In this document: one piece after another, positions 15,588-30,974 of the stretch | Layout of the letters: the number at the start of each line of letters is the position of its first letter | How positions within the stretch are numbered: the stretch's first letter is position 1 | NCBI GenBank assembly: GCA_013362315.1 | Contig: JABFWL010000345.1 | Span: 1 to 35,402 of the forward strand | DNA: 35,402 nt | Source of the DNA: Catenulispora sp. | GTDB taxonomy: Bacteria; Actinomycetota; Actinomycetes; Streptomycetales; Catenulisporaceae | Direction of reading: 5' to 3' | Notes under the pieces: generated by a model | What the model was told of the DNA's origin: nothing | The model's input: only the letters and a program-made list of their open reading frames with translations | Database searches by the model: none | Position numbers and translations under genes: made by a program

Positions 15588-17027
15588 TCAGGGGGATTCG
15601 CCAAGTGCCTGCACGAGATTCGGCAGCAAGGCGGTGGCGGTTTCGATGTCGGGGGTGAGATCGCGGTCCGCGGTGTCGCGGGGCAGCACCTCGCACAGAT
15701 CCAGCGCCAGCCGCAATCCGTCGGGCGTCTTCCGGTCCCGCATGCGCAGCGCACGGACTGCGGCGACCAGTTCGCAGGCCAGCAGCGTCCGGTAGTTCTC
15801 AGTCGCCGTGAGCGCCTGTTTGGCGGCCAGCGACGCGAAGCTGGCGTCCTCTTCCACACCGCGCGACAGGGTCACGCTTTGCAGCCCCGCGGGTGTGGCG
15901 GCGGCGCGCAGTTCGGCCAGGGCCGAGGCGGCGACGTACTCCAGGATCATCACGCCGGAGGCCCCGGGAGTCCCGTCCCCGAGGAACGGGGGGAGCCGGG
16001 TGAAGAAGGGTTCGATCAGCGCGGCGAGTCGTCCCAGGATGAGCTGCCCGGTTTGGGCCACGCCCAGGACGGCGGTGTCCAGCGCCATCTGCAGGTGGCT
16101 GGCGTGGAAGCCGCCGTGGTGCGCGAGCGCGGTCTCCTCGGGCTCCCCGGACAGGAGCACGGGATTCTCCGAAGGTGCGTTGACCATCGGGGTGATGGTG
16201 TCCGACAGTGCGCGCAGCGAGTCCAGCGCGGCGCCTTGCGACTGCGGCAGGACCCGCAGGCCGAGCGGGTCCTGGATCCGCGCCGGCGGTGAGTCGGACG
16301 CGGTCAGTGCGCGCAGCCACGCGTTCACCCGCCGGGTGCCCGCGAACGGGGTGACCCGGTCGACGCCCCGGGAGAAGGCTTCGCGGTTGCCGTCGACGGC
16401 GGCGAACGTCAGGGCCGCGACCACCACCGCGGCCTGCGCCGTCCGCTCGAGGTCGACGCAGGCCAGCGCCGCGTCGGCGAGGGTGGCGGCGTTGCTGCTC
16501 AGGAACGGCAGCGCGTCGTGCGCGGTGAACGGGATGACCGCCGGCAGCGGTGCCGCAGTGGGCCCCTCGCCCATCAGGGCCAGCGCGGTGGTCGCCAGGG
16601 CCGACAGATCGCCGGTGCCTATGCCTCCGTGTTCGCGGATCGTGGGCAGCGCGTCGGCCCGGATCATGGCGGCCAGCCCGTCCAGGACCACCGGGTGGGC
16701 GCCGCTGCCGCCGGCCGCGAGCTGGTTGAGCCGGATCACCAGCATCGCCCTGACACGCTCGGCGGACCGGACGGGACCGGCGGCGGTGGCGTGGCTGCGC
16801 AGCAGCGCGACGGCGTGGGCGGCCGGATCGTCCACCGGAACCATGCGGTTCGCGCCGACTCCGGTGGAGCGGCCGTACACCGTGCGCACCTTGGAGATCT
16901 CGGCCGCGATCCGATAGGAGGCCGCGGCACGCGCGCGGCCGGAATCGGCGAGTTCCACCGGCTCGCCACGCCGCGCGGCCTGCGCGATCTGCCCGCAGTC
17001 CAACCGGGTTCCGTCAAGGTCGATCAT
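15588..17027 (-). CDS. HAL/PAL-family ammonia-lyase homologue with altered MIO site
   Basis: The family removes ammonia from histidine, phenylalanine or tyrosine using an MIO cofactor made from an Ala-Ser-Gly triad. This 479-residue protein is a clear member: 'TVYGRSTGVGANR' carries the conserved catalytic Tyr51, 'RSHATAAG' the His79, 'FLSSNAAT' the Asn179, 'QDPLGLRVLPQSQGA' Gln252 and Arg258, and 'SRGVEEDAS' the Glu. Two key positions differ. The MIO segment reads 'GGIGTGDLSALA', so Gly137-Thr138-Gly139 replace Ala-Ser-Gly. Leu255 replaces the Tyr usual in 'QDxYSLR'. It may be a divergent lyase or mutase, or may not use MIO. The start ATG at 17027 has GGAGGAG 6 nt upstream. It diverges from iclR and an OpuC-type transporter, suggesting that the substrate is imported by that system. 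Confidence 0.88.
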   Translation of the reverse strand: MIDLDGTRLDCGQIAQAARRGEPVELADSGRARAAASYRIAAEISKVRTVYGRSTGVGANRMVPVDDPAAHAVALLRSHATAAGPVRSAERVRAMLVIRLNQLAAGGSGAHPVVLDGLAAMIRADALPTIREHGGIGTGDLSALATTALALMGEGPTAAPLPAVIPFTAHDALPFLSSNAATLADAALACVDLERTAQAAVVVAALTFAAVDGNREAFSRGVDRVTPFAGTRRVNAWLRALTASDSPPARIQDPLGLRVLPQSQGAALDSLRALSDTITPMVNAPSENPVLLSGEPEETALAHHGGFHASHLQMALDTAVLGVAQTGQLILGRLAALIEPFFTRLPPFLGDGTPGASGVMILEYVAASALAELRAAATPAGLQSVTLSRGVEEDASFASLAAKQALTATENYRTLLACELVAAVRALRMRDRKTPDGLRLALDLCEVLPRDTADRDLTPDIETATALLPNLVQALGESP

Positions 17028-17098
17028 GACCATCTCCTCCTGGCGACGGCGGTCGTCCGCGCCAGTCGTCCACGCCGGTTGCGCCGGGGTCTTCCGCA

Positions 17099-17156
17099 GT
17101 GGCGCCAAGTGTGCCACGCTTTCGTCTGCTGGCAAGCCCCTTTCATCTGTTGGCAA
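17099..17156. promoter_or_regulatory. Direct repeats in the lyase-iclR divergent region
   Basis: TTTCGTCTGCTGGCAA (17120-17135) and TTTCATCTGTTGGCAA (17141-17156) match at 14 of 16 bases with a 21-bp period, two turns of the helix. Just upstream GTGGC (17099-17103) and GCCAC (17113-17117) form a small inverted repeat. The region lies between the lyase start (17027) and iclR (17201). It is the natural place for IclR tandem binding sites. Confidence 0.5.
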
Positions 17157-17200
17157 CCTCGGCAATCCTGTGGAAACAGGTGAATGCGAAAGTGGCGGCG

Positions 17201-17902
17201 ATGACCTCGACAGCCGAACAGTCGAATCCTGCGACCCGCACGGTGGAACGCGCTCTGGGCCTGCTGGCCGTGGTCTGCGACGAAGGCTCGATCAGCCTGT
17301 CCGACTCGGCCCGCAGCGCGGGCCTCGCGCCGAGCACGGCCCTGCGACTGCTCCGGACCCTGGAGAGCGGCGGGTTCGTGCGCCGCGACCCCGACGGCCT
17401 GTTCCACGCCGGGCCGCGGATCATCCAGATCGGAGCGACCGCGCTCGGCCGGCAGGAACTCGTCAAGGCGGCCGAACCCGCCTTGCACCGGATCGTGAAG
17501 GCCAGTGGGGAGACCAGCTATCTGAGCATCCGCGGGGCCGGCGAGCGGGCGCTGTACATCGGCATGGTGGAAGGCGTCCACGCGGTGCGGCACACGGGCT
17601 GGGTCGGCCGCACCATCCCGCTGGACGGCACCGCCGCCGGGGCGGTGCTGCTGGGCGCCGTCCCGGACTGCGGCTACATGATCGTCCGGTCCAGCGTGGA
17701 ACCGGACGTGTCGTCCGTGGCCGCACCGATAACGTGGCCCGGCGGGGTGGTCGGCGCGCTCAGTGTCGTCGGCCCCACCTATCGTATCGACGAGGAACGG
17801 GCGGAGGTGTTCGGACGGATCGTGAGCGAGGAAGCTCGGGCACTGTCCGGACAGTTCACCACACCCAGCCGAAGAGCACGCGACGGAGGTGAGAGCCGGT
17901 GA
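17201..17902 (+). CDS. IclR family transcriptional regulator
   Basis: A 233-residue IclR-type regulator. The winged HTH covers about residues 12-70, with 'RTVERALGLLAVVCDEGSIS' and the recognition part 'GLAPSTALRLLRTLES'. The effector domain has 'GETSYLSIRGAGERALYIGM' and 'VGRTIPLDGTAAGAVLLGAV', both standard for the family. It is slightly shorter than the usual 250 residues. ATG at 17201 is the best start; a GTG at 17192 is also in frame and the Shine-Dalgarno is weak for both. Its stop overlaps the ATPase start (GTGA), so regulator and transporter are one operon. It probably senses the transported compound or a breakdown product and controls the divergent lyase too. Confidence 0.9.
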   Translation: MTSTAEQSNPATRTVERALGLLAVVCDEGSISLSDSARSAGLAPSTALRLLRTLESGGFVRRDPDGLFHAGPRIIQIGATALGRQELVKAAEPALHRIVKASGETSYLSIRGAGERALYIGMVEGVHAVRHTGWVGRTIPLDGTAAGAVLLGAVPDCGYMIVRSSVEPDVSSVAAPITWPGGVVGALSVVGPTYRIDEERAEVFGRIVSEEARALSGQFTTPSRRARDGGESR

Positions 17903-19011
17903 TCCGGTTCGAATCGATAACGAAGACCTATCCTGACGGCACCGTGGCCGTCGACTCGCTCGATCTCGAAGCTCCCTCCGGCCAGATCACCGTGCTCGTC
18001 GGGCCCTCCGGATGCGGCAAGACCACGTCGCTGCGGATGATCAACCGGATGATCGAGCCCACCTCGGGCCGGATCTGGCTGGACGACCGGGACACCGGCC
18101 GGATCCCGGCCGCCGAGCTGCGCCGCGGGATCGGCTACGTCATCCAGCACGCCGGGCTGTTCCCGCACCGCACCATCATCGACAACGTCGCCACGGTGCC
18201 GTATCTGCTCGGCTGGGACAAGAAGAAGGCGCGCACCCGCGCCGCGGAGCTGTTGGAGCAGGTCGGGTTGCCGGCCCACTTCGCCAAGCGCTACCCGGCC
18301 CAGCTGTCCGGCGGCCAGCAGCAGCGGGTCGGCGTCGCCCGGGCGCTGGCCGCCGACCCGCCGGTGATGTTGATGGATGAGCCCTTCAGCGCCGTCGACC
18401 CGGTCGTGCGCGACCAGTTGCAGGACGAATTCCTTCGCCTGCAAAGCGAACTGGGCAAGACCATCGTGTTCGTCACCCACGACATCGACGAGGCGATCAA
18501 GCTCGGGGACCAGGTCGCGGTGCTGCGCGTGGGCGGCCGGCTGGCGCAGCTGGCCACGCCGGCGGAGCTGCTCAACCGGCCGGTCGACGCCTTCGTGGCC
18601 GGCTTCGTGGGCCGGGACCGCGGCTATCGCGCGCTCGCCTTCAGCACCGCCGGCCGGCTGTCCACCCGCGAGGAGCCGACCGTGCGGCTCGGCGCGCCGG
18701 TGCCGGCCGGCACCGACGACGCGGACGGGTGGCTGCTCGTCGTCAACGATGCGGACGAGCCGCAAGGCTGGCTGAAGCTGGGCGAGTCCGGCGCCGACGG
18801 AGAGGTCGTCACCGACGCCATGCTGCACCGCGGCGGAACCCTGGCCCACCAGGGCGGATCGCTGCGCGCGGCGCTGGACGCGGCGCTCTCCTCACCGTCC
18901 GGGCGCGGGGTCGTGGTCGAGGAGGACGGCCGGCTGGCCGGCTCGCTCACCGCCAGTGAAGTGCTCGCCCTGATCGAGAACCCGCTGCCGCAGCCGGAGC
19001 CGCAGCCGTGA
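17899..19011 (+). CDS. OpuC-type quaternary amine ABC transporter, ATPase
   Basis: Energises import of a quaternary ammonium compound. The 370-residue protein has Walker A 'GPSGCGKTTS' (about 35-44), a Q-loop in 'GYVIQHAGLFPH', signature 'LSGGQQQRVGVARAL', Walker B 'VMLMDEPFSAVDP' and the H-loop in 'VFVTHDIDEA'. After the nucleotide domain a C-terminal extension (about 265-360) contains a CBS-like segment ending 'GRGVVVEEDGRLAGSLTAS'. That layout is typical of OpuCA/ProV proteins, where the CBS part senses ionic strength. GTG start overlaps the iclR stop and the stop overlaps the next permease, both as GTGA. Confidence 0.92.
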   Translation: MIRFESITKTYPDGTVAVDSLDLEAPSGQITVLVGPSGCGKTTSLRMINRMIEPTSGRIWLDDRDTGRIPAAELRRGIGYVIQHAGLFPHRTIIDNVATVPYLLGWDKKKARTRAAELLEQVGLPAHFAKRYPAQLSGGQQQRVGVARALAADPPVMLMDEPFSAVDPVVRDQLQDEFLRLQSELGKTIVFVTHDIDEAIKLGDQVAVLRVGGRLAQLATPAELLNRPVDAFVAGFVGRDRGYRALAFSTAGRLSTREEPTVRLGAPVPAGTDDADGWLLVVNDADEPQGWLKLGESGADGEVVTDAMLHRGGTLAHQGGSLRAALDAALSSPSGRGVVVEEDGRLAGSLTASEVLALIENPLPQPEPQP

Positions 19012-19709
19012 TCCTCGCCGATTCGAGCTCGTCGAGCTCCCCCCTGCACTTCTGGGGCTACTTCCTGGACCATCGCGCCGAAGACCTGCGCTGGCTGTGG
19101 GATCACACGTACCTGTCCCTGATCCCGGTCGTCATCGGGCTGGTCATCGCGCTGCCGCTGGGCTGGCTGTCCCGCCGCTACGGATGGCTCTACCCGCCGA
19201 TGGTGTCGATCTCCGGCCTGCTCTACACGATTCCGTCGATCGCGCTGTTCGTCATGGTGCCGCCACTGCTCGGGCTCAAGTCGTTGGACCCGTTGCAGGT
19301 GCCGATCGCGCTGACGGTCTATTCGGTCGCGCTGTTGGTGCGGGTGGTCGCCGACGGCCTGGCCTCGGTGCCCGAGGACGTGGCGCAGGCCGCGACAGCC
19401 GTCGGCTACAAGCGTCTCAGCCTGCTGTTCCGGGTCGAGCTGCCGATCGCCGTCCCGGTGATCGCGGCGGGTCTGCGGGTCGCCACCGTGTCCAACGTCA
19501 GCATGGTCGCCATCGCCGGGACCATCGGCCAGGAGAACCTCGGCCGGCTCTTCGACCAGGGGAAGCAGTTGTCGACCACGGGTCCCTACTACCCGCCGAT
19601 CGTGCTGGGCATCGTGCTCTGCGTGCTGCTGGCGCTGACCTTCGACCTGCTGATCGTCTTCGGTACCCGAATGCTGACACCTTGGCGCAGAGCGGTGGTG
19701 GGACGATGA
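19008..19709 (+). CDS. OpuC-type ABC transporter permease 1
   Basis: A 233-residue inner-membrane permease of the ProW/OpuCB group with about five or six helices. After a polar lead, the first helix is 'YLSLIPVVIGLVIALPLGWL'. The cytoplasmic EAA loop, which contacts the ATPase, is seen as 'AATAVGYKRLSLLFRVELP'. Then comes 'ATVSNVSMVAIAGTIGQENL', characteristic of OpuC permeases. Start and stop overlap both neighbours (GTGA before, ATGA after). It forms the channel together with the next permease. Confidence 0.9.
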   Translation: MILADSSSSSSPLHFWGYFLDHRAEDLRWLWDHTYLSLIPVVIGLVIALPLGWLSRRYGWLYPPMVSISGLLYTIPSIALFVMVPPLLGLKSLDPLQVPIALTVYSVALLVRVVADGLASVPEDVAQAATAVGYKRLSLLFRVELPIAVPVIAAGLRVATVSNVSMVAIAGTIGQENLGRLFDQGKQLSTTGPYYPPIVLGIVLCVLLALTFDLLIVFGTRMLTPWRRAVVGR

Positions 19710-20470
19710 TCGGCGATGTCCTGACGTGGCTCAACGACCCGGCCCACTGGCGCGACACGCGCGTGGACAAGGGGATCCCCACGCAGCTCCAGACCCACAT
19801 CACGTTCACTCTGATCGCCCTGGCCATCGCGCTGGCGCTGGCGCTGCCCCTGGGTCTGTTCATCGGTCACACCGGGCGGCTGACGTTCCTGGTCACCGCC
19901 GCCAACGCGCTGCGCGCGCTGCCGACGGTCGGCGTGCTGGTGCTGCTCACGGTGATCATCTCGCCGCACTTCCACGGGCGCACAGACCTCGGCTTCGTGA
20001 TCCCCACCGAGATCGTGCTGGTCTTCCTGGCCGTCCCGCCGATCCTGTCCAACACCTACGCCGGCGTGCAGAACGTCAGCGCGGCGGCCCGGGACGCGGC
20101 GGCCGGGATGGGCATGACGGGGACCCAGGTGCTCCGCAAGGTCGAGCTGCCCTGCAGCCTGCCGTTGATCTTCTCCGGATTCCGCAGCGCCACCCTGCAG
20201 GTGATCGCGACCGCGACCGTCGCCTCCTATGTGACGCTGGGCGGCCTCGGCGCGTTCATCTACGACGGACTGCAGCAGCAGGACTTCCCGCAGATGATCG
20301 GCGGGGGTGTGCTCGTGGCACTGCTCGCGCTGCTGGCGGACCTGCTGCTGGCGACGATCCAGCGCTATGCGGTCTCGCGCGGGATCTCCGGCCGTTTCTC
20401 GACGAAGTCCGTCATCCCGGCGGACGCGGCCACAGCTCAGGTCCGCACCGCGGAGGCGTCAACGGTCTGA
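19706..20470 (+). CDS. OpuC-type ABC transporter permease 2
   Basis: A 254-residue partner permease. The first helix region reads 'ITFTLIALAIALALALPLGL', followed by 'NALRALPTVGVLVLLTVII', the EAA loop 'DAAAGMGMTGTQVLRKVELP' and 'ATATVASYVTLGGLGAFIYD'. These are the standard features of ProW/OpuCD proteins. The ATG at 19706 overlaps the preceding stop as ATGA, which fixes the start. A polar tail of about 30 residues ends the protein. A 49-bp gap with AAGGAG leads to the binding protein gene. Confidence 0.9.
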   Translation: MIGDVLTWLNDPAHWRDTRVDKGIPTQLQTHITFTLIALAIALALALPLGLFIGHTGRLTFLVTAANALRALPTVGVLVLLTVIISPHFHGRTDLGFVIPTEIVLVFLAVPPILSNTYAGVQNVSAAARDAAAGMGMTGTQVLRKVELPCSLPLIFSGFRSATLQVIATATVASYVTLGGLGAFIYDGLQQQDFPQMIGGGVLVALLALLADLLLATIQRYAVSRGISGRFSTKSVIPADAATAQVRTAEASTV

Positions 20471-20519
20471 CGCGTCGCGCAACCAGTACCGGGCCTGTCA
20501 ACACCGACCAAGGAGAATA

Positions 20520-21488
20520 ATGAATCGCAAGGCCATCACCGTCGGCGCGGCTGCGGCCGCCCTGGCCCTGGCGCTCACCGCCTGCGGAAGTGACAGCGGC
20601 AAGAGCACCACCTCCGGATCCACCGGATCCACCGGATCCGGAGGCTCAACCGCGACGATCGCCAGCAAGCTGATCCTCGGCGGCCCGCCGGAGTTCAAGA
20701 CCCGCACGGACGGCGTCCCGGGGCTGCAGAAGAACTACGGCGTGGTCTTCAGCGGGTACAAAGTGCTCGACACCGGCGGTCCGGTCACCGTGACCGCGCT
20801 CAAGAACGGCCAGGTCGACGCCGCCGACCTGTTCACCACCGACCCGTCGATCGCCGCGAACGGCTTCGTGATCCTGCAGGACCCCAAGAACAACTTCGCC
20901 GCTCAGAACGTGCTGCCCCTGATCTCCAAGGCGAAGGCCACCGACGGGGTCACGAAGGTCCTGAACGGGATCTCGGCCAAGCTCGACACGGCGGGCCTGG
21001 GCGCGATCCTGACCAAGGTGCAGAACGACAAGCAGGACCCGGACGCCGTCGCCAAGCAGTGGCTGAAGGACCAGGGCCTGGACGCGGCCGGCACGGACGC
21101 CGCCGGCGTGACGCTCACGGTCGGTTCGGCCAACTTCCCCGAGAGCGTGGTGCTGGCGCAGATCTACGCCGAGGCGCTCAAGGACCACGGCGCGACTGTT
21201 TCGACCAAGTTGAACATCGGGGCCCGCGAGGTGTACGTCCCCGGACTCAAGGACGGCTCCATAGACCTGATCCCGGAGTACAACGGCTCCATCCTGCAGT
21301 ACCTCGACAAGAATGCCACCGCGACCTCGTCGGACGACGTGTACGCCGCACTCCAGAAGGCGCTGCCGCCCAACCTGGTCGTGCTGGACCAGTCCAAGGC
21401 CCAGGACAGCGACGCCATCGTCGTCACCAAGGCGACAGCCGACAAGTACGGCCTGACCTCGATCGCCGACCTCGCCAAGACACAGTAG
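20520..21488 (+). CDS. OpuC/ProX-type binding lipoprotein with swapped halves
   Basis: The extracytoplasmic substrate-binding protein of the upstream importer, 322 residues. A lipoprotein signal ends in lipobox 'LTAC' with Cys22, then a Gly/Ser/Thr linker (23-46). In the usual OpuC-type protein the mature chain opens with a 'VGSxNFxES...LIPEYNG' half and closes with a 'LGGPPEFxTR...DPxxVAKxWL' half. Here the order is reversed: 'LILGGPPEFKTR' starts near residue 51 and runs to 'DPDAVAKQWL' near 181. 'TVGSANFPES' starts at residue 200, 'GSIDLIPEYNGS' follows and the chain ends 'SIADLAKTQ'. Both halves look complete, so this looks like a circular permutation and not a truncation. Start ATG is fixed by AAGGAG and the signal peptide. 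Ligand probably a betaine or other quaternary amine. Confidence 0.9.
   Translation: MNRKAITVGAAAAALALALTACGSDSGKSTTSGSTGSTGSGGSTATIASKLILGGPPEFKTRTDGVPGLQKNYGVVFSGYKVLDTGGPVTVTALKNGQVDAADLFTTDPSIAANGFVILQDPKNNFAAQNVLPLISKAKATDGVTKVLNGISAKLDTAGLGAILTKVQNDKQDPDAVAKQWLKDQGLDAAGTDAAGVTLTVGSANFPESVVLAQIYAEALKDHGATVSTKLNIGAREVYVPGLKDGSIDLIPEYNGSILQYLDKNATATSSDDVYAALQKALPPNLVVLDQSKAQDSDAIVVTKATADKYGLTSIADLAKTQ
20616..20639 (+). repeat. 9-bp tandem repeat in the lipoprotein linker
   Basis: GGATCC recurs at 20616, 20625 and 20634 with ACC between copies, a 9-bp period encoding Gly-Ser-Thr units of the flexible linker after the lipid-modified Cys. Repeat slippage here would only change linker length by three residues. 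Confidence 0.8.
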
Positions 21489-22284: not shown

Positions 22285-22364
22285 CGCGGTCATCGTCCCG
22301 CAACAGCGCATTCCTAGCATCTTCGGCATCAGGCCAGGCCAGGTGAATGCGAAGGAGGACAAGG

Positions 22365-23819
22365 ATGACCGTCACCGAAAGTCCGGGCGAGGTCCGCCGC
22401 GAATACGATCCGCGGCTGACGAACGAGGAGCTCGCCCCGCTCAAGCAGCAGACCTGGGGCACGTACAACATCTTCGCGTTCTGGATGTCGGACGTGCACA
22501 GCGTCGGGGGGTATCTCACCGCGGGCAGCCTGTTCGCGCTCGGCCTGACGAGCTGGCAGGTCTTCATCTGCCTCATCGTCGGCATCGTCATCGTGCAGTT
22601 CTTCTGCAACCTGGTCGCCAAGCCGAGTCAGCAAGCCGGCGTGCCCTACCCGGTGACCAGCCGCGCGTCGTTCGGCGTGCTCGGCGCGAACATCCCCGCG
22701 ATCATCCGGGGACTGATCGCGGTGGCGTGGTACGGCGTGCAGACCTTCCTGGCCGCCGAGTCGCTGAACATCGTCTTCCTCAAGCTGTGGCCCGGACTCG
22801 CGCCGTACGCCGACGTGCATCGGCACGGCCTGCTCGGCCTGTCCTACCTCGGCTACCTGAGCTACGCGATCCTGTGGGTGCTGCAGGCGGCGCTGTTCTG
22901 GCGCGGTATGGAGACCATCCGCAGGTTCATCGACCTGGCCGGTCCCGCCGTGTACGTCCTCATGGTCGTGCTCTGCGTCTACATGCTGACGAAGGCCCAC
23001 TGGCACGTCGATCTGAACCTCTCCAGCCGGCACCTGAGCGGCTGGTCGCTGGTCTGGACCCTGTGCGGAGCCACGGCGGCCGTGGTCGCGTACTTCTCCG
23101 GACCGATGCTCAACTTCGGCGACTTCTCCCGCTACGCCAAGTCCCACTCCGCGGTGAAGCGGGGCAACCTGCTCGGCCTGCCGGTCAACTTCGTGATGTT
23201 CTCGCTGCTCACGGTGCTGACCGCGGCGGCGACGGTGCCCGTCTACGGTCAGCTGATCACCGATCCGATCCAGACGGTGCAGAAGATCGGCAACACCTTC
23301 GCGATCATCGTGGGCGGCGTCACGTTCGTCACCGCCACCGTCGGCATCAACATCGTCGCCAACTTCATCTCGCCGGCCTTCGACTTCTCGCACGTCAGCC
23401 CGCAGAAGGTGAGCTGGCGGGCGGGCGGCATGATCGCGGCCGTCGGGTCGCTGCTGATCACGCCGTGGAACTGGTACAACAACCCGGACGCGATCTTCTG
23501 GACGCTCGGCCTGCTCGGCGCGCTGATCGGTCCGTTGTTCGGCATCCTGATCGCCGACTACTACCTGATCCGCGATCAGAAGATCGTGGTCGACGACCTG
23601 TTCACCCTGGAGGAGGACGGGGCGTACTACTACCGCCGCGGGTACAACCCCGCGGCCATCAAGGCCGTCGCCGTCTCCGGTGCCGTCTCGCTCGCCTCGG
23701 TCATCGTGCCCAAGGTCGGGGACGTGCTGACCTGGCTGCCGCAGTACGGCTGGTTCGTCGGCTGCGGCGTCGGCTTCCTGTCCTACTGGCTGATCGCGCG
23801 GCCGGCTCAGCAGCGGTGA
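22365..23819 (+). CDS. NCS1 family nucleobase/hydantoin/allantoin permease
   Basis: A 484-residue cation-coupled permease of the NCS1 family, which carries nucleobases, hydantoins and allantoin. Twelve hydrophobic segments fit the length. Family segments are visible: 'WGTYNIFAFWMSDVHSVGGY' near the N-terminus (helix 1), 'PVTSRASFGVLGANIPAIIR', 'FSGPMLNFGDFSRY', 'NIVANFISPAFDF' and 'LIADYYLIRDQ'. ATG at 22365 is fixed by GGAGG 6 nt upstream. The stop overlaps the racemase start (GTGA), so transport and racemisation are coupled. A ureide, hydantoin or nucleobase is the likely cargo; sequence alone does not say which. Confidence 0.92.
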   Translation: MTVTESPGEVRREYDPRLTNEELAPLKQQTWGTYNIFAFWMSDVHSVGGYLTAGSLFALGLTSWQVFICLIVGIVIVQFFCNLVAKPSQQAGVPYPVTSRASFGVLGANIPAIIRGLIAVAWYGVQTFLAAESLNIVFLKLWPGLAPYADVHRHGLLGLSYLGYLSYAILWVLQAALFWRGMETIRRFIDLAGPAVYVLMVVLCVYMLTKAHWHVDLNLSSRHLSGWSLVWTLCGATAAVVAYFSGPMLNFGDFSRYAKSHSAVKRGNLLGLPVNFVMFSLLTVLTAAATVPVYGQLITDPIQTVQKIGNTFAIIVGGVTFVTATVGINIVANFISPAFDFSHVSPQKVSWRAGGMIAAVGSLLITPWNWYNNPDAIFWTLGLLGALIGPLFGILIADYYLIRDQKIVVDDLFTLEEDGAYYYRRGYNPAAIKAVAVSGAVSLASVIVPKVGDVLTWLPQYGWFVGCGVGFLSYWLIARPAQQR

Positions 23820-24571
23820 TCATCAAGGTCGTCAATCCGAACACCACGGCGTCGATGACGCGGATGATCGCCAAGGCGGCGAGCGCCGCGGCCGGCCCCG
23901 GCGCGCGCGTGGTCGCGACCACCTCGGGCAGCGGGCCGGCCTCGATCGAGTCGCACTATGACGAGGCGCTCAGCGTCCCCGGCCTGCTCGCCGAGATCAC
24001 CGGCGGCGAGCCGGCGGACGGGTTCGTCGTCGCGTGCTTCGGCGATCCGGGACTGGACGCGGCCCGCGAGGTCGCGTCCGGCCCGGTCGCCGGGATCGCC
24101 GAGGCGGGGATGCGCGCGGCCACCTACCTCGGCCGGACGTTCGGCGTGGTCACGACACTCGGGCGCGCGACGGGGCGCACCTGGGAACTCGCTCACCGCT
24201 ACGGTGTCGCGGCGCAGTGCCGCGGCGTCCGCGCGACGGACATCCCGGTCCTCGATCTCGAGGCGGACAGCTCGGCACGGGCTCGCATCCTCCTGGAGTG
24301 CCGCGCGGCGATCGAGACCGACGGCGCCGAGGTCATCGTGCTCGGCTGCGCGGGAATGGCGGACCTGTGCGCCGATCTGCGCCGCGAGCTCGCGATCCCG
24401 GTGATCGACGGGGTGGCCGCCGCCGTCGCCGCGGTCGAGGGTCTGGTCCGGCTGGGCCTGGGCACCAGCCGGATCGGCGAGTACGACCGGCCGCCGGCCA
24501 AGCCCTACCGGGGGCTGCTCGCGGGGTTCGAACTCGGCGGCGGCCCCGGCGCTGTCACACGGGTTCGATGA
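23816..24571 (+). CDS. Hydantoin/allantoin racemase family protein
   Basis: Asp/Glu racemase superfamily, hydantoin racemase (HyuE/HpxA) branch, 251 residues. It interconverts enantiomers of 5-substituted hydantoins or allantoin by proton transfer between two Cys. Both are present: 'VVACFGDPGLDAARE' in the N-terminal half and 'VIVLGCAGMADL' in the C-terminal half. The opening 'IKVVNPNTTASMTRMI' is also typical. The GTG start overlaps the NCS1 stop. A much longer open frame exists upstream in the same phase but crosses two other genes and is not used. The stop codon lies inside the palindrome at 24569-24584. Confidence 0.9.
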   Translation: MIIKVVNPNTTASMTRMIAKAASAAAGPGARVVATTSGSGPASIESHYDEALSVPGLLAEITGGEPADGFVVACFGDPGLDAAREVASGPVAGIAEAGMRAATYLGRTFGVVTTLGRATGRTWELAHRYGVAAQCRGVRATDIPVLDLEADSSARARILLECRAAIETDGAEVIVLGCAGMADLCADLRRELAIPVIDGVAAAVAAVEGLVRLGLGTSRIGEYDRPPAKPYRGLLAGFELGGGPGAVTRVR

Positions 24572-24584
24572 AACAGGATTTTCA
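24569..24584. promoter_or_regulatory. GAAA-N6-TTTC type operator before the amidase gene
   Basis: TGAAACAGGATTTTCA, a near palindrome (5 of 6 half-site positions), 46 bp before the amidase ATG. It matches the sites at 27322 and 27354 in length and pattern. A probable -10, TACCTA, follows at 24614-24619. The binding protein may be the RpiR or the GntR regulator of the cluster. Confidence 0.55.
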
Positions 24585-24629
24585 AATCCGGGGCACGCCG
24601 GTGAAACGCCGCGTACCTAGCTTCACGGC

Positions 24630-25727
24630 ATGACCACGGCTACCGCTCAGATTCTGCAGCCGGATTCCGGTCCGGTGCGGGCCCGGCACTATCTGCCCGC
24701 CACGACCGGAACCGTGCTGTGGGGGCGGCTGCCGTGCGAGCTGGACGCGCCGGTGCTCACCGTCGACCCGGGCGCCGAGGTGACCATCGACACCGTCAGC
24801 CACGAGGGCGTTCTCGAGGACCAGGGGCGGGACCCGGTCACGTTCTTCGCCGGGCACGGCGTCGAATCGGAACTGGTGTTGCGGGACGCCATCGCTCTGG
24901 CGCGCTCGTTCCCGGGGCGCGATCCCGCGCGCGACGGCCCGCACGTGGTCACCGGGCCGATCCGGATACGCGGGGCCGCGCCCGGCGACCTGCTGAAGAT
25001 GACGGTGCTCGAGACGCTGCCGCGGGTGCCGTACGGGATCATCTCGAACCGGCACGGCAAAGGCGCGCTGCCGGGTGAGTTCCCGCGCGCTCCGGGTACC
25101 GTGAGCGTCTTCGCCGAGCTCGACGGGACCGGCTGCGCCGCGATGGCGGCGCGCGCCGGGCTGGCACGCACGGTGCGGTTCCCGGTCGCGCCGTTCCTCG
25201 GGATCATGGGTGTCGCCGTCGCCGGGCACGAGCGCCCGCACTCGGTGCCGCCCGGGGCGCACGGCGGCAACCTCGATATCAAGCTGCTGACGGCAGGCAG
25301 TTCGCTGTACCTGCCGGTGCAGGTCGCCGGAGCGCTGGCATACGTGGGCGACCCGCACTTCGCCCAGGGCGACGGCGAGGTGGCCCTGACAGCGCTGGAG
25401 GCCTCGCTGCGGGTCACCGTGCGGTTCGACGTGATCGGTCAGGCCGAGGCGCTCGACCGGTTCGGCCGGCTCGCCGGGGCGCTGGCCGAGACCGCCGACC
25501 ATCTGATCCCGACCGGGCTCGACACCGATCTGGACGAGGCGATGCGCCGCTGCGTGCGCGCCGCCGTCGCACTGCTGCAGGCCAGGTTCGGCATGGATCC
25601 CGAGCACGCGCTGGCCTATCTGAGCGCCGCGACCGACTTCCACATCTCGCAGGTCGTGGACGTGGTGAGCGGGGTGCATGCCCGGATCCGCGTCGCCGAC
25701 TTCGATGTCGCCGCGGCGTCGCGGTGA
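24630..25727 (+). CDS. Acetamidase/formamidase family protein
   Basis: A 365-residue member of the FmdA/AmdA family, which hydrolyses short amides such as formamide to ammonia and acid; some members act on other small amide compounds. Family signatures are 'TIDTVSHEG' near the N-terminus, 'GPIRIRGAAPGDLLKMTVL', 'PFLGIMGVA', 'PGAHGGNLDIKLLTAGS' and 'GDPHFAQGDGEVALTALE', which carry the metal and substrate residues. ATG at 24630 follows a TACCTA -10-like element by only 10 nt, so the leader would be very short; no good Shine-Dalgarno is seen. In this cluster it may release ammonia from a formamide- or urea-like intermediate (inference). Confidence 0.9.
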   Translation: MTTATAQILQPDSGPVRARHYLPATTGTVLWGRLPCELDAPVLTVDPGAEVTIDTVSHEGVLEDQGRDPVTFFAGHGVESELVLRDAIALARSFPGRDPARDGPHVVTGPIRIRGAAPGDLLKMTVLETLPRVPYGIISNRHGKGALPGEFPRAPGTVSVFAELDGTGCAAMAARAGLARTVRFPVAPFLGIMGVAVAGHERPHSVPPGAHGGNLDIKLLTAGSSLYLPVQVAGALAYVGDPHFAQGDGEVALTALEASLRVTVRFDVIGQAEALDRFGRLAGALAETADHLIPTGLDTDLDEAMRRCVRAAVALLQARFGMDPEHALAYLSAATDFHISQVVDVVSGVHARIRVADFDVAAASR

Positions 25728-25784
25728 CGTCGAAGCCGCGACACCCCACCTATCGACCATCGACCATAGAGAGGAAGCCCGAGC

Positions 25785-26393
25785 GTGATAGAGCTCGCGA
25801 AGGAATACCGTGTGCGGCTGCCCGACTGGATCGAGGACGAACTGGCCGAACTGCCGGACGCGGTCCCGGACCTCGAGGACCGGATGCGGTTGCTGCACCG
25901 GCTGGCCGACCGCAACTGGCGGGAGGGCAACGGCGGTCCGTTCGCGGCGCTGGTCGCCGAGCGCGACACCGGCCGGATCGTGTCGATCGGGGTGAACGTG
26001 GTGCTCGCCTCCGGGGTCTCCAGCGCGCACGCCGAGGTGGTCGCCCTGGGCCTGGCCCAGGCCGGGATCGGCGGCTGGGACCTCGGCGGCACCGGGCTGC
26101 CGACGCACGAGCTCGTGGTCAACTGGCGTCCGTGCATCCAGTGCTACGGCGCGGCGATGTGGTCCGGCGTGCGACGCCTCGTGATCGCGGGGGAGGGGCC
26201 GGAGCTGGAGGAGATCACCACCTTCGACGAAGGCCCGCTCGGCGCCGACTGGGTCGCGCAGTTCGAGGCGCGCGGTATCGAGGTCGTGCGGGACGTGCTG
26301 CGCGACGAGGCCCTGGACGTGTTCCGCGCCTACCGGAAGGCCGTCGACAGTGACGGCCTCGTCGTCTACAACGCCCGGGGAGGCGCGGAATGA
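25785..26393 (+). CDS. Nucleoside/nucleobase deaminase family protein
   Basis: A 202-residue zinc deaminase of the CMP/dCMP deaminase superfamily. Zinc ligands and the catalytic Glu are in 'HAEVVAL' and 'PCIQCYGAAMW', the HxE...PCxxC signature. About 45 residues precede the core, starting 'IELAKEYRVRLPDWIEDELA', and a C-terminal extension follows. The arrangement is closer to the guanine deaminase/TadA-like group than to tetrameric cytidine deaminase, but the substrate cannot be assigned. GTG at 25785 has AGGAAG about 8 nt upstream. The stop overlaps the TIM-barrel gene (ATGA). In the cluster it may deaminate the ring of an imported nitrogen heterocycle. Confidence 0.88.
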   Translation: MIELAKEYRVRLPDWIEDELAELPDAVPDLEDRMRLLHRLADRNWREGNGGPFAALVAERDTGRIVSIGVNVVLASGVSSAHAEVVALGLAQAGIGGWDLGGTGLPTHELVVNWRPCIQCYGAAMWSGVRRLVIAGEGPELEEITTFDEGPLGADWVAQFEARGIEVVRDVLRDEALDVFRAYRKAVDSDGLVVYNARGGAE

Positions 26394-27352
26394 CGGTGCC
26401 GCCGCCGCTGTTCGCCACCGACATCATCACCTTCTACCACCCGGGCTTCTGGGGGATGGACTCCACCGCGGACTTCCGCGCCTGGGCGTCGAAGAACCCG
26501 GAGGACTTCTGGCGGCGCGTGATGGACGCCCTCGAAGAAGCCGGAGTCAGCGGCGTCGAGCTGACCTTCGCGCCCGGCGACATCGGCTCGGTCCTGCGGG
26601 CCTACGGCTCACCGGCGGCGTTCCGCGGCGAACTCGCGGCGCGCGGGCTCGCCGTCGTCAGCGCGTTCATCGCGGACGAGGAGAGCCTGGACTGGCGGGA
26701 CCCGGGGAACCTGCCGGCGATCGTCGCCGACGCCGAGCGGCGCGCGGCCTTCCTCGCCGAGACGGGCGCGCGGATCCTCGTCGCCGGGCTGCCGATGCGC
26801 AAGACCTTCGGCACGCGGCCGCCGTTCTTCGTCGACGCCGCCTACCTGACGCAGATGGCCGACGTCGCGCACGCCGTCGGCGCGGCGACGGCGGAGCACG
26901 GCGTGCGGCTCGCCTTCCACACGGAGTCGAACAGCACGCTGTGGTACGAGCGCGACATCGACCTGTTCATGGCGTTGACCGATCCGCAGTACGTGTGGCT
27001 GTGCCCCGACTCGTGCCACATCGCGCTCGGCGGGGGCGACCCCGTCGCGGTCGCGCGCCGGCACGCGCAGCGCGTCGCGCTCGCGCACTGGAAGGACGCG
27101 GTCCAGCCGATCGACCGCGATCTCATCATCGACGAGACGATCTTCGTGCAGCAGCAGCCTTATATGGCCGAGCTCGGCGCCGGCATCGTGGACTGGCCGG
27201 GCTGGGCCGCCGCGATGGCCCGCACCCCGGCGGCGGACGTCGTGCTCATCGAACTCGACGAGGCAGCCGATCCGGTCACCGCGCTCAGGACGGGGAAGTC
27301 GGTGGCGCAGCGCGCCCTGGCTGAAACCCTGGTTTCAGCGGGCGCGCGCTGA
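26390..27352 (+). CDS. Xylose-isomerase-like TIM-barrel protein
   Basis: A 320-residue protein of the AP endonuclease 2/sugar phosphate isomerase-epimerase barrel family. Putative metal ligands follow the family order: Glu in 'GVELTFAPGD', His and Glu in 'LAFHTESNSTLWY', Asp and His in 'LCPDSCHIALGGGDP', His in 'LAHWKDA' and Glu in 'VVLIELDEA'. No member-specific function can be read. It is translationally coupled to the deaminase (ATGA overlap), so it probably acts on the deaminated product or a later sugar- or keto-acid-like intermediate. The 3' end of the gene carries a long inverted repeat including an operator-like palindrome. Confidence 0.85.
   Translation: MTVPPPLFATDIITFYHPGFWGMDSTADFRAWASKNPEDFWRRVMDALEEAGVSGVELTFAPGDIGSVLRAYGSPAAFRGELAARGLAVVSAFIADEESLDWRDPGNLPAIVADAERRAAFLAETGARILVAGLPMRKTFGTRPPFFVDAAYLTQMADVAHAVGAATAEHGVRLAFHTESNSTLWYERDIDLFMALTDPQYVWLCPDSCHIALGGGDPVAVARRHAQRVALAHWKDAVQPIDRDLIIDETIFVQQQPYMAELGAGIVDWPGWAAAMARTPAADVVLIELDEAADPVTALRTGKSVAQRALAETLVSAGAR
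27310..27347 (+). terminator. Long inverted repeat at the 3' end of the TIM-barrel gene
   Basis: GCGCGCCC (27310-27317) pairs with GGGCGCGC (27340-27347). Inside lies CTGAAACC-CT-GGTTTCAG (27321-27338). In RNA this is a hairpin of two 8-bp stems with a small internal loop, placed just before the stop codon. It may end or attenuate transcription ahead of the next promoter. The inner palindrome also fits an operator in DNA. Confidence 0.5.
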
Positions 27353-27369
27353 CTGGAACACGGATTTCA
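27322..27369. promoter_or_regulatory. Two GAAA-N6-TTTC operators before the ABC transporter operon
   Basis: TGAAACCCTGGTTTCA (27322-27337, perfect palindrome) and TGGAACACGGATTTCA (27354-27369) are spaced 32 bp start to start, about three helical turns. A -10-like TGCCTA lies at 27409-27414. With 24569-24584 they form a three-member family that probably coordinates the cluster. Confidence 0.6.
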
Positions 27370-27435
27370 CCCGCGCGGTCCGGGCGGACACGGGCGGGAA
27401 ACACCCGCTGCCTACCGTCGCTTGCACGCGCCGCC

Positions 27436-27479
27436 CCTTCGCTGTTCCTTCGCCTTTCCCTCGCTTTTCCTTCGCTTTC
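27436..27479 (+). repeat. Four 11-bp tandem repeats in a purine-poor leader
   Basis: Units CCTTCGCTGTT, CCTTCGCCTTT, CCCTCGCTTTT and CCTTCGCTTTC follow one another at 27436, 27447, 27458 and 27469. They lie within 27427-27511, an 85-nt stretch with no A and only isolated G on the plus strand. It is probably the 5' leader of the binding-protein mRNA. Confidence 0.8.
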
Positions 27480-27523
27480 CCCTCCCCTCCGTCTTCCCCT
27501 TCGCCTTCGTCAGGAGCCCTGTC

Positions 27524-28621
27524 GTGAACGACGATCTCGCCGCCGCCGGAATCAGCCGGCGTTCGATACTGCAATGGGCGGCTCTGGGCGTGACCGCCCC
27601 CTCCCTGCTGGCCGCGTGTGGATCCTCGAAGAGTTCGGGGAAGAGCCCGGCCGCGGTCGGGTCCGGGCCGAGTTCCGGCGCCGATCTGGGCTCGATCGCC
27701 GTCCAACTGTCCTGGATCAAGAACATCGAGTTCGCCGGGGAGTTCTTCGCGACGACCAAGGGCTACTACAAGGCGGCCGGGTTCTCCGCGGTGAACCTGA
27801 TCGCGGGCGGTTCGGCGGGCACCTCGGCGGAGTCCGCCGTCGCCTCCGGCAAGGCCTTCGTCGGCCTGTCCTCGCCGGGCGCCACCGGCCCCGCGATCCT
27901 GCAGGGGGCGCCGCTCAAGACGGTCGCCACCACATATCAGAAGAACCCGTTCGCCATCCTGTCGATCGCATCCAAGAAGCCGATCGCGACGCCGAAGGAC
28001 ATGGCGGGCAAGAAGATCGGCGTGCAGCAGGGCACGAACCAGGTGTTGTTCAAGGCGCTGCTGACCGCGAACGGCCTGAGCGCCTCGGATGTGACGATCG
28101 TGCCCGTGCAGTACGACCCGACCGTGCTGGCCACCGGCGAGGTGGACGGCTACATGGCCTACATCACCAACGAACCGATCCTGATCAAGTCCAAGGGTCT
28201 TGAGCCCACGACGTTCCTGTTCGCGGACTACGGGCTGCCGCTGGTCTCCGAGACCTTCGTCGTGCTGCAGGAGTCGATCGACAAGGACCGCGCGAAGGTC
28301 AAAGCCCTGCTGAAGGCGGAGATCCAGGGCTGGAAGGACGCCGTGGCCGCGCCCGCGGACTCGGCCGCTCTGGCGGTGAACCAGTTCGGCAAGGACGCCG
28401 GCCTGAACCTCACCGAGCAGACCGCCGAGGCCACGGCGCAGAACGATCTGATCGTCAGCGACGACACCAAGAAGAACGGCCTGTTCACCATGACCGACGA
28501 GCTGATCGCGAAGAACATCGACGCGCTCGGCAAGGTCGGCGTCAAGGTCACCGCCAAGCAGTTGTTCGACCTGTCGCTGCTGGCGGAGGTCTACGCGGAG
28601 AACCCGAGTCTGAAGGCGTGA
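27524..28621 (+). CDS. ABC transporter substrate-binding lipoprotein, NMT1/THI5-like
   Basis: A 365-residue solute-binding protein. The N-terminus has a twin-arginine type lipoprotein signal: 'SRRSILQWAALGVTAPSLLA' ending in lipobox 'LAAC', followed by a Ser/Gly linker. The mature part opens with 'VQLSWIKNIEFAGEFFATTK' and 'GYYKAAGF', the pattern of NMT1/THI5 proteins such as ThiY and SsuA. It continues with 'KKIGVQQGTNQVLFKALL' and 'PVQYDPTVLATGEVDGYMAY'. ThiY relatives bind pyrimidine thiamin precursors, others sulfonates or nitrate. With deaminase, amidase and ureide enzymes around it, a nitrogen heterocycle or ureide is the likeliest ligand (inference). GTG at 27524 has AGGAG 7 nt upstream; an upstream open frame through the repeat leader is unlikely to be translated. 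Confidence 0.9.
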   Translation: MNDDLAAAGISRRSILQWAALGVTAPSLLAACGSSKSSGKSPAAVGSGPSSGADLGSIAVQLSWIKNIEFAGEFFATTKGYYKAAGFSAVNLIAGGSAGTSAESAVASGKAFVGLSSPGATGPAILQGAPLKTVATTYQKNPFAILSIASKKPIATPKDMAGKKIGVQQGTNQVLFKALLTANGLSASDVTIVPVQYDPTVLATGEVDGYMAYITNEPILIKSKGLEPTTFLFADYGLPLVSETFVVLQESIDKDRAKVKALLKAEIQGWKDAVAAPADSAALAVNQFGKDAGLNLTEQTAEATAQNDLIVSDDTKKNGLFTMTDELIAKNIDALGKVGVKVTAKQLFDLSLLAEVYAENPSLKA

Positions 28622-28627
28622 GGCCAG

Positions 28628-29431
28628 ATGCCAGATGCGACCGGCCCCGGCGGCATCGAACTGCGCGCGCTGACCAAGCACTTCAAGGTCGGCCGGCGCA
28701 CGATCACCGCTCTCGACGACGTCTCGCTGCACACTCCCGAGGGCCGCTTCCTGTCCCTGCTCGGGCCCTCGGGCTGCGGTAAGTCCACCATCCTGCGCAT
28801 CGCCGCGGGACTCGAACAGCCCACGTCGGGTGCGGCCGTCATCAACGGGCTGACTCCTCGGGAGCTGCGCCGGGAGCACGCGCTGGGCATCGCGTTCCAG
28901 GACTCCGCGCTGCTGCCGTGGCGCTCGGTGACGGCCAACATCCGGCTGCCGCTGGAGGTCGCCGGGGTCAAGCCGGAGCCCGGCTTCATCGAGGACCTGA
29001 TCCGCCTCGTCGGTCTGGAGGGATTCGAGAAGGCCAAGCCGGCGCACCTGTCCGGCGGCATGCGCCAGCGCGTCTCGATCGCCCGCGCCCTGGTGGTGCG
29101 GCCCTCGGTGCTGCTGCTCGACGAGCCGTTCGGCGCGCTCGACGACATGACCAGGCAGCGGATGAACGTCGAGCTGCAGCGGATCCTCGCCGAGCAGCCC
29201 GCGACGACCCTGATGGTCACGCACGGCATCGCCGAGGCCGTGTTCCTCTCGGACCACGTCGCGGTGATGAGCGCCCGGCCGGGCCGCATCGTCGAGGTCG
29301 TCGACATCGACCTGCCGCGTCCGCGCACCCCCGAGATCATGCGGACCGCGGAGTTCCACGCCTACCACGACCGGCTCTCGGCGCTGCTGTTCGACTCCGA
29401 GGCCGCGCAGTCGGCGGGAGCCGCGGTATGA
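28628..29431 (+). CDS. ABC transporter ATPase, SsuB/TauB/ThiZ-like
   Basis: A 267-residue ATPase of the nitrate/sulfonate/pyrimidine importer group. It has Walker A '[10 protein letters not shown]', Q-loop '[12 protein letters not shown]', the signature '[15 protein letters not shown]' (GGM form typical of this group), Walker B '[14 protein letters not shown]' and H-loop '[11 protein letters not shown]'. It follows the binding protein by 6 bp and its stop overlaps permease 1 (ATGA). It powers uptake through the two permeases that follow. Confidence 0.92.
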
Positions 29432-30192
29432 CGGCGATCGGCCGGCGCCTGGCCGCCGGCGCCGGGGTGCTGATCCCGCTCGCGGTGTGGGCCCTCGTCG
29501 GCGTGTTCGGATTCGGCACGCACGGCGCGGTGCCCACCCCGTGGGCCGTGCTGCACCAGATGACCGTGGACGGCGCGGGACTCTACTGGTCCAACGCGAC
29601 CGTGACGATCACCTACGCGGCCGAGGGTTTCCTGTGGGGCAACCTCGCCGCCTTCGCCGTCGCCGCCGTGACGCTGCTGGCGCCCCGCCTGGCCCCGGCC
29701 GCCTCGCAGCTCGCGGTGCTCAGCTACTGCATGCCGCTGACCGCGATCGGCCCGATCGTGCTGGTGGTGATGGGCGGCCGCGCCCCCACGGTCTTCCTGG
29801 CGGCGATGGCGGTGTTCTTCACGACACTGGTCGGCGCCCTGCTCGGCGTACGCTCCTGCGATCCGGCGGCGCTGGACGTGGTGCAGGCCTACGGCGGCAA
29901 CCGCTGGCACCGGCTCGTGAAGGTCCAGCTGGTCTCCGCTCTGCCTGCGACCATCAACGCGCTGAAGATCGCCGCGCCCTCGGCGATGCTCGGCGCGATC
30001 CTCGGTGAGTACCTCGGCGGCGTGGACAGCGGCCTCGGGGTGGCGCTCACCCTCGCCCAGCAGCAGTTCGACGTCGCGCGCACCTGGGCGCTGGCTCTGG
30101 TGACCGGCTTGCTGGCGTTCGCCGGCTACGGGTTGTTCTCGGTGCTCGGCCGGGTGCTCACCCCCTGGGCCCGGACGGGAGGGACATCGTGA
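29428..30192 (+). CDS. ABC transporter permease 1 (SsuC/ThiX-like)
   Basis: A 254-residue membrane permease with about six helices. '[20 protein letters not shown]' forms the first helix. The EAA loop reads '[20 protein letters not shown]', followed by '[20 protein letters not shown]' and 'LGEYLGG', typical of SsuC-type permeases. The ATG overlaps the ATPase stop and the stop overlaps permease 2 (GTGA). Importers of this class often use two identical permeases; here two different ones are encoded, so the channel is probably a heterodimer. Confidence 0.9.
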
Positions 30193-30974
30193 GGACGGTG
30201 TGGCGCATCATCAACCCGCTGCTGGTCTCGGGCGTGGTCGGGCTCTGCCTGTGGTTCGCGGTGGTGTACCTGTTCTCGTTCAGCCCCTATGTCGTCAAGA
30301 GCCCGTCGGACGTGTGGACGTACCTGTTCTCCAGTCCCGACGCGGCGGCCAACCGTTCCTCGGTCCTGCAGCCGTTGGGCACCACACTCGGCGACGGCGC
30401 GTACGGGTTCTGCTTCGGCATGGCCGCGGCCGTCGCCGCCGCCCTGGCCTTCGTCACCGCGCCCGCCGTCGAGCGCGCCTTCATGCCGCTGGCGACGCTG
30501 CTGCGCTCGGTGCCCCTGGTGACCATGACCCCGCTCATCGTGCTGGTCTTCGGCCGCGGGATCGGCGGCATCGCGGTGATCGGCGGCATTGTCGTGTTCT
30601 TCCCCGCACTGGTCACGATTGTGCACGGGCTGCGCGCGGCCCCGCCGCACGCGCTGGACGTGGTCGCGGTCTACGGCGGCGGGCAGCGCAGCGTCCTGGC
30701 GAAGGTCGCGCTGCCCGGAGCGCTGCCCTACCTGTTCGCCGCCGCCCGGCTCTCGGTGCCCAGCGCACTGGTCGGCGCCCTCGTCACCGAGTGGCTGGCG
30801 ACCGGTCAGGGGATCGGCGGGGTGATCCTGTCCGATATCGGAGCGTTCGGCTACCTCCACCTGTGGGCCTCGATCATCGTGCTGACCTCGGTGTCCGTGG
30901 TGCTCTACACGCTGGTGGGCGCGGCCGAGGCCATCGTGCTCTCGCGGATGGGCATGGCAGGGGCGGACGCGTGA
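30189..30974 (+). CDS. ABC transporter permease 2 (SsuC/ThiX-like)
   Basis: A 261-residue permease paralogous to the preceding one. A first helix near 10-30 is followed by a periplasmic segment with 'VKSPSDVWTYLFSS', then 'LLRSVPLVTMTPLIVLVFGR', the EAA loop 'VAVYGGGQRSVLAKVALPGA' and 'VGALVTEWLATGQGIG'. The GTG start overlaps permease 1, and its stop overlaps the AtzH-amidase gene (GTGA), placing importer and hydrolase genes in one operon. Confidence 0.9.
   Translation: MRTVWRIINPLLVSGVVGLCLWFAVVYLFSFSPYVVKSPSDVWTYLFSSPDAAANRSSVLQPLGTTLGDGAYGFCFGMAAAVAAALAFVTAPAVERAFMPLATLLRSVPLVTMTPLIVLVFGRGIGGIAVIGGIVVFFPALVTIVHGLRAAPPHALDVVAVYGGGQRSVLAKVALPGALPYLFAAARLSVPSALVGALVTEWLATGQGIGGVILSDIGAFGYLHLWASIIVLTSVSVVLYTLVGAAEAIVLSRMGMAGADA

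Follow-up and report, generated by a model that had tools for sequence, protein, structure and literature searches.

The stretch examined here, which we call the window, comprises positions 1 to 35,402 of contig JABFWL010000345.1 of a Catenulispora sp., and our subject is a plus-strand gene at 20520..21488. One open frame of 322 codons, it matches PF04069 and encodes a substrate-binding lipoprotein of the OpuC type, the two halves of which stand in an order that we name type A. AAGGAG at 20510..20515 (+), read in the sequence 5' of the ATG, resembles a ribosome-binding site, and the first 22 residues (20520..20585, +) form a lipoprotein signal peptide ending at C22 of the lipobox LTAC. Residues 47-187 (20658..21080, +), termed D2, correspond to the C half of standard proteins of the OpuC type, residues 199-319 (21114..21476, +), termed D1, correspond to their N half, and between the two residues 188-198 (21081..21113, +) make a new linker connecting what were the C end and the N end. 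Upstream on the same strand lie a ProV-like ABC ATPase (17899..19011) and two PF00528 permeases (19008..19709 and 19706..20470; the start of the second is inferred within a frame open from 19097), which together with the binding protein give the make-up of an OpuC-type ABC importer.

The reversal of the halves is seen in two kinds of comparison. The protein scores 170.9 bits against PF04069 (cut-off 21.2), as two stretches. In the better of these, residues 198-321 align with positions 2-111 of the 257 in the profile, which puts the N half of the domain at the C end of the window protein. In a phmmer search of the PDB, residues 44-187 matched positions 145-288 of chain 7s7w and residues 194-320 matched positions 14-147; likewise throughout ProX, OpuCC, EgtUC and related sensors the first part of the window protein matched C halves and its last part N halves, and this crossing indicates that the halves are swapped. 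The NCBIfam OsmF model gives the protein 86 of 400 bits. An earlier note, made from the letters alone, had described two whole halves in reverse order at about 51-182 and 200-322 within an otherwise standard OpuC operon, and on all of these points, including the limits to within a few residues, our results agree with it.

AlphaFold2, run on the window protein with an alignment of 33 permuted proteins, returned a mean predicted local distance difference test score (pLDDT) of 88.7 and a predicted template modelling score of 0.81, with 256 of the 322 residues at 90 or above. Segments of three or more residues below 50 were confined to 1-3, 7-19 and 28-42, that is, to the signal peptide and the spacer behind it, and the predicted fold is complete, as the earlier note had expected of a genuine permutation. 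The note had also placed the join at the domain linker, and here our alignment with EgtUC points elsewhere: the new ends map near EgtUC residue 364, some 23 residues past the start of lobe II (341-432 in PMC9732360), placing the cut inside lobe II and away from the hinge. Both hinge crossings are retained in the permuted chain and the old ends are connected in lobe I through residues 188-198. The new chain would thus begin inside lobe II and cross to lobe I, where the short linker would connect the old C and N ends, and would then cross back to complete lobe II; as such a path crosses the hinge twice, the two lobes would be retained, as would the pocket and the two hinge strands.

The gene has been kept by selection. 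A full-length permuted copy, 84% identical, is present in a second genome of the genus, evidently Catenulispora rubra; over the whole gene the ratio of nonsynonymous to synonymous substitution rates (dN/dS) is about 0.4 against this copy (0.108/0.27) and 0.27 to 0.36 against three others, and the window gene is under purifying selection. Taken with the operon and the predicted fold, we consider it likely that the gene encodes a functional binding protein, anchored by lipid and serving an OpuC-type ABC importer, whose chain is circularly permuted.

The same arrangement was found in other bacteria. Scanning a species-genome collection, from which the best 80 of 86 relatives were taken, together with a search of the genus, gave 115 open reading frames that contain D1 as well as D2. 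Of these 24 are permuted and 91 standard, and some genes are counted more than once because their loci overlap. Permuted genes were found in Catenulispora, Streptacidiphilus, Pseudofrankia, Patulibacter and Allobranchiibius, in Chloroflexota bins and in several Actinomycetota bins, including Intrasporangiaceae and Acidimicrobiaceae, and a type A gene is present in a single-contig genome as well (G145). The permuted proteins that are complete at both ends have in common a lipobox, a start like IASKLIMGGPPEF, the linker and an end like SIADLAKPA. A divergent type A set (L226, L231, L238), with starts like DLTLGGPADC and GGFRD replacing the usual SRE stretch, perhaps serves a different cargo. At E values up to 1e-50 the permuted form was found in 5 of 394 genomes of the class and in 9 of 296 genomes of the phylum, and a profile search at 1e-80 found it in 14 of 396 genomes of the phylum, one of them with a second type of cut (below); each count includes the window's own genome. 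Within the genus two of ten genomes carry the permuted form and all ten carry standard-order relatives. Over all loci scanned there were 185 distinct frames: 137 standard, 39 type A, 6 of the second type, 2 cut by contig ends and 1 fragment. The standard order is therefore the commonest among the relatives found, and the earlier note's reservation that type A might prove the usual arrangement is answered. Half for half, the standard forms have about 40 to 65% of their residues in common with the window protein; two of them, 45-52% identical per half, stand side by side on another contig of the window's own genome (G000:C95:10452-13463), with about 1.4 kb separating the matches.

Profile searches also brought up a protein (genome G753) whose first half begins FHFKPLDSGGP and which ends ...LGLEKVYGLKFKQS. 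When the taxonomic order of this genome was searched (148 genomes), 28 matched, most of them partially, and several were full-length colinear relatives. This layout, D2b-D1-D2a, is named type B and comprises six frames (L213, L215, L216, L217, L218 and L220), one genome with it (G746) being a single contig. The type B cut falls about 31 residues deeper into the D2 half than that of type A, and on alignment a second cut in this family is present in Actinomycetota.

For the trees the D1 and D2 halves were aligned separately and then concatenated in common order, and near-identical rows were thinned, leaving 73 of 126, 83 of 155 and 96 of 182 rows in successive sets. Two standard frames with short halves were dropped, and four standard frames at a later step; for the 96-row tree 3 of 185 frames were dropped, and the pair truncated at contig ends was classified manually, L212 as type A and L219 as type B. 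The 73-row tree, with 32 permuted rows, has five changes of order, at least three of them forced by starred branches, and none of its 200 bootstrap trees shows one change only; holding all 32 permuted rows in one clade costs 251 log units (approximately unbiased (AU) test, p 3e-7). The 83-row tree has ten changes, at least seven forced, and the 96-row tree (63 standard, 26 type A and 7 type B) has 13, of which ten concern type A (at least six forced) and three type B (at least two forced). As recombination may mix the histories of the halves, each was tested alone, and a single clade for all of type A was rejected by D1 (p 3.2e-6) and by D2 (p 0.0044). The window's clade is placed among standard-order actinobacterial proteins, with one standard protein (L052) adjoining it or falling inside. 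Subject to the tree, the type A cut is found again and again in separate lineages, both in Actinomycetota and in Chloroflexota, so that swaps of this kind seem to have occurred independently on several occasions among related bacteria. The arrangement in the window, for which the earlier note had allowed either a family or a single event, would then belong to a series of permutations in this family that used two or more breakpoints.

Swapping the order was accompanied by little change around the gene or in the pocket. The operon check covered 21 permuted loci, the loci found later having flanks of only about 1.5 kb; the ATPase and both permeases stand beside the gene at 15 of them, and at the other six (L008, L038, L048, L049, L054 and L060, the first being the same gene as the C. 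rubra copy, L035) the available sequence stops upstream. Thirteen positions were compared with pocket residues of EgtUC. At 12 of them the three orders agree in their commonest residue (with two tied in type B), and at the remaining one, 129, it is D in standard, D in type A and E in type B proteins. F206 is present in 62 of the 63 standard rows and in all 26 type A and all 7 type B rows, R236 in 60 of 63, 26 of 26 and 7 of 7, and D296 in 50 of 63, 26 of 26 and 6 of 7; position 62 varies more in type A, with R in 18 of 26 rows and N in six. The positions on the D2 side (58, 62, 105 and 129) were placed on EgtUC only indirectly, from sensor alignments and residue spacing. Judged by these alignments, the pocket residues are largely the same as in standard-order relatives.

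Based on these data we propose that order switching is a recurrent, apparently near-neutral feature of the family and no rare accident, in which the same lobe II surface loop would have been opened repeatedly and a second loop separately, with little change of pocket or operon, and we put the probability of this reading at 0.78. Several points weigh against it. The changes of order may be gains or losses and the tree is unrooted, so that they give no definite count of separate permutation events, and where L052 stands next to or inside a permuted group a reversal and separate events look alike. The trees of single halves are built on few columns and poorly resolved: no more than two (D1) and four (D2) type A changes, and one type B change each, are forced by starred branches, and the AU tests of the halves cover type A only. 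The bootstraps of the 83-row and 96-row trees are not settled, the AU tests followed sight of the trees, though the groups were defined by order, and many tree rows are metagenome bins. The fold, finally, is a prediction for the type A window protein alone.

The alternative that fares best against repeated switching is a single ancient type A permutation whose trace was later obscured as permuted and standard paralogues recombined, leaving halves with mixed histories. Standard and permuted copies are found together in the window's own genome and in G460, G436, G573, G583 and G651, so that gene conversion is possible. However, as each half separately rejects a single clade for all of type A, both would have to have been replaced repeatedly with the order left unchanged, and type B requires a second event in any case; we regard this alternative as improbable, although it deserves some weight.

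It is far less probable that the window gene is an inherited member of the known OpuAC/ChoX subgroup, which is permuted relative to ProX, rather than newly permuted. The half order of Bacillus subtilis OpuAC is presumably that of type A. However, AfProX, EgtUC, OpuCC and other chains like them are matched at 4e-28 or better by the profile of the permuted family, whereas 2b4l (OpuAC) is not matched up to an E value of 10 and 2reg (ChoX) only at 0.19 over 46 residues, and the nearest sequence relatives that we found are standard-order actinobacterial proteins; we rejected membership on these sequence grounds. The permuted family seems to be made up of permuted relatives of standard OpuC-type proteins, arisen repeatedly and remote in sequence from OpuAC and ChoX. 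With the OpuC/AfProX type (OpuCC, Archaeoglobus fulgidus ProX, OsmF and EgtUC; subcluster F-III) it shares PF04069, the predicted fold and the operon make-up, and differs in half order and in certain pocket residues described below. Circular permutation among the glycine-betaine binding proteins 2b4l, 1r9l and 1sw1 is described in PMC2395249, in a passage that gives no residue for it. The swapped topology is already known in remote OpuAC proteins, and none of the papers listed by our searches described its recurrence within one family.

That the gene is a decaying or misassembled remnant we dismiss: the genome is indeed a draft (770 contigs, 81.6% completeness), but a full-length copy exists in C. 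rubra, single-contig copies exist in G145 and, for type B, in G746, dN is well below dS and the operon is present.

Tandem duplication followed by loss of the outer halves, the origin suggested by the earlier note, may have led to each permutation, with the two inner halves becoming fused. Tandem pairs do occur: permuted genes are paired in Patulibacter (L043:4711-6837) and Allobranchiibius (L047:5932-7907), so that the permuted form itself duplicates, and standard genes are paired in L063 and, as above, on contig C95. Such pairs fit duplication with loss of the outer halves and make it a reasonable route, but no fused D1-D2-D1-D2 intermediate was present among the 185 frames, and a search for repeats within the window gene gave no more than four families of direct repeats, all short and imperfect, the longest of 32 nucleotides at 72%, with no clear trace of duplication.

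What the importer carries is a separate question, on which the neighbouring genes bear. Divergent from the operon, at 15588..17165 on the minus strand, lies a HutH-like lyase (PF00221) without the triad that forms the 4-methylideneimidazole-5-one (MIO) group: its motif, within GIGTGDL, reads IGT-GDL against GCSGDL in the HutH of the same genome, so that the triad and one residue are missing. Close relatives of this lyase stand at 6 permuted and 11 standard loci, all without the triad (IGTGDL in 15 of 17 and IGTADL in the two from Actinoplanes). The MIO triad is needed to expel ammonia, and the genome has a normal CSG-type HutH on another contig (C468), beside hutU. Histidine-utilization genes also adjoin relatives of the binding protein: hutF and hutI in Nocardioides (L053), and hutU, hutF and hutI in Mycobacterium (L091); near a permuted gene of Pseudofrankia (L041) there is a cut hutI-like frame (259 of 298 bits). 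In two rhizobial plasmid operons (L247 and L248) a standard-order relative is accompanied by a lyase without the triad and then by a CoA transferase gene and beta-oxidation genes, for a hydroxyacyl-CoA dehydrogenase and an enoyl-CoA hydratase. Ergothionase, another HutH-like enzyme without MIO, releases trimethylamine (PMC13405746). The lyase profile matches ergothionase (PDB 6s7j) over its full length at 3e-64, and it matches histidine ammonia-lyases better (best E value 8e-82).

We rate a histidine or other plain amino-acid cargo, rather than a betaine, as a serious possibility, if one still short of even odds. Hut genes adjoin relatives, and HutXWV of Sinorhizobium, a hut-linked importer of this class, takes histidine. 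Normal CSG-type HutH is encoded at 17 Kribbella loci with standard-order relatives (L059, L064, L066-L071, L074, L075, L077, L083, L084, L094, L098, L105 and L107). The pocket, too, would suit such a cargo: the equivalents of EgtUC cage residues Y341 and Y443 are N or D and D, E or Q, respectively, and Arg is common at 62 and 236. Against it stand the lyases without the triad at the window operon and at 17 relatives, and the normal HutH that the genome already has elsewhere.

An aromatic amino-acid betaine, perhaps hercynine, is the cargo that the missing triad and the likeness to ergothionase bring to mind, and by this analogy hercynine would be cleaved inside the cell by the MIO-less lyase, perhaps to urocanate and trimethylamine. 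We hold this to be a doubtful suggestion. The lyase is present at only 6 of the 21 permuted loci, a second frame in L056 is, like the HutH of the Kribbella loci, of the normal CSG type, and histidine fits the hut genes equally well. The candidates for an aromatic cage are Y254 and D298, from the EgtUC alignment, and F105 and Q129, placed only indirectly from the sensor alignments and residue spacing; as D298 and Q129 are not aromatic, the window protein lacks a four-aromatic cage for a quaternary amine, and the same two of four positions are non-aromatic in the family. As normal HutH is found at the 17 Kribbella loci, we lowered our estimate for a betaine by a small step and raised that for histidine likewise. 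Our literature search found no paper that links hercynine with urocanate and trimethylamine.

Ergothioneine was also considered and its standing lowered. The Lys and Gly specific to EgtU (EgtUC 242 and 244) are replaced by A204 and F206 in the window protein. A hydratase next to one relative passes the threshold for urocanate hydratase (913 bits against 375) and falls short of those for thiourocanate hydratase (665 of 930) and S-methyl thiourocanate hydratase (714 of 880), which sets this setting apart from that of ergothionase. None of the Ert lyase models matched the window lyase.

Between the lyase and the ATPase gene lies an IclR-type regulator (17099..17902, +, start uncertain), a relative of which is present at 8 of the 21 permuted loci. 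Downstream, the region 22347-35054 encodes an NCS1 allantoin-type permease, an Asp/Glu/hydantoin racemase, a formamidase-like protein, a deaminase, a TIM barrel, an NMT1-type ABC importer and an allantoate amidohydrolase, with an amidase and an aminotransferase recognized by eye only; it is probably a separate cluster for purine or hydantoin degradation.

Natural circular permutations are mostly told as single old events. Among the papers listed by our searches, of a literature with few subscription journals, none described permuted proteins of the OpuC type or permutation recurring within their family. Treponema MglB-2 offers a parallel, as this ABC binding protein is lipid-anchored, is naturally permuted and still binds its ligand, but it is a type I sugar-binding protein of another fold class with another breakpoint (PMC4990184). 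For viral polymerases, two independent permutation events are one of three scenarios in PMC4666646, where another is favoured.

In Actinomycetota and Chloroflexota, permuted forms of the OpuC-type protein, with two different breakpoints, coexist with standard ones, and the two kinds could serve as natural replicates for studying the route of permutation at the DNA level, the loops that tolerate it and its cost. Annotation that depends on order splits such proteins, as the two Pfam stretches and the low OsmF score of the window protein illustrate. The MIO-less lyases beside some of the operons offer a testable case for a pathway that would release trimethylamine from amino-acid betaines. Several separate swaps within one family, if the trees are read correctly, suggest that this kind of protein tolerates rewiring of its chain unusually well.
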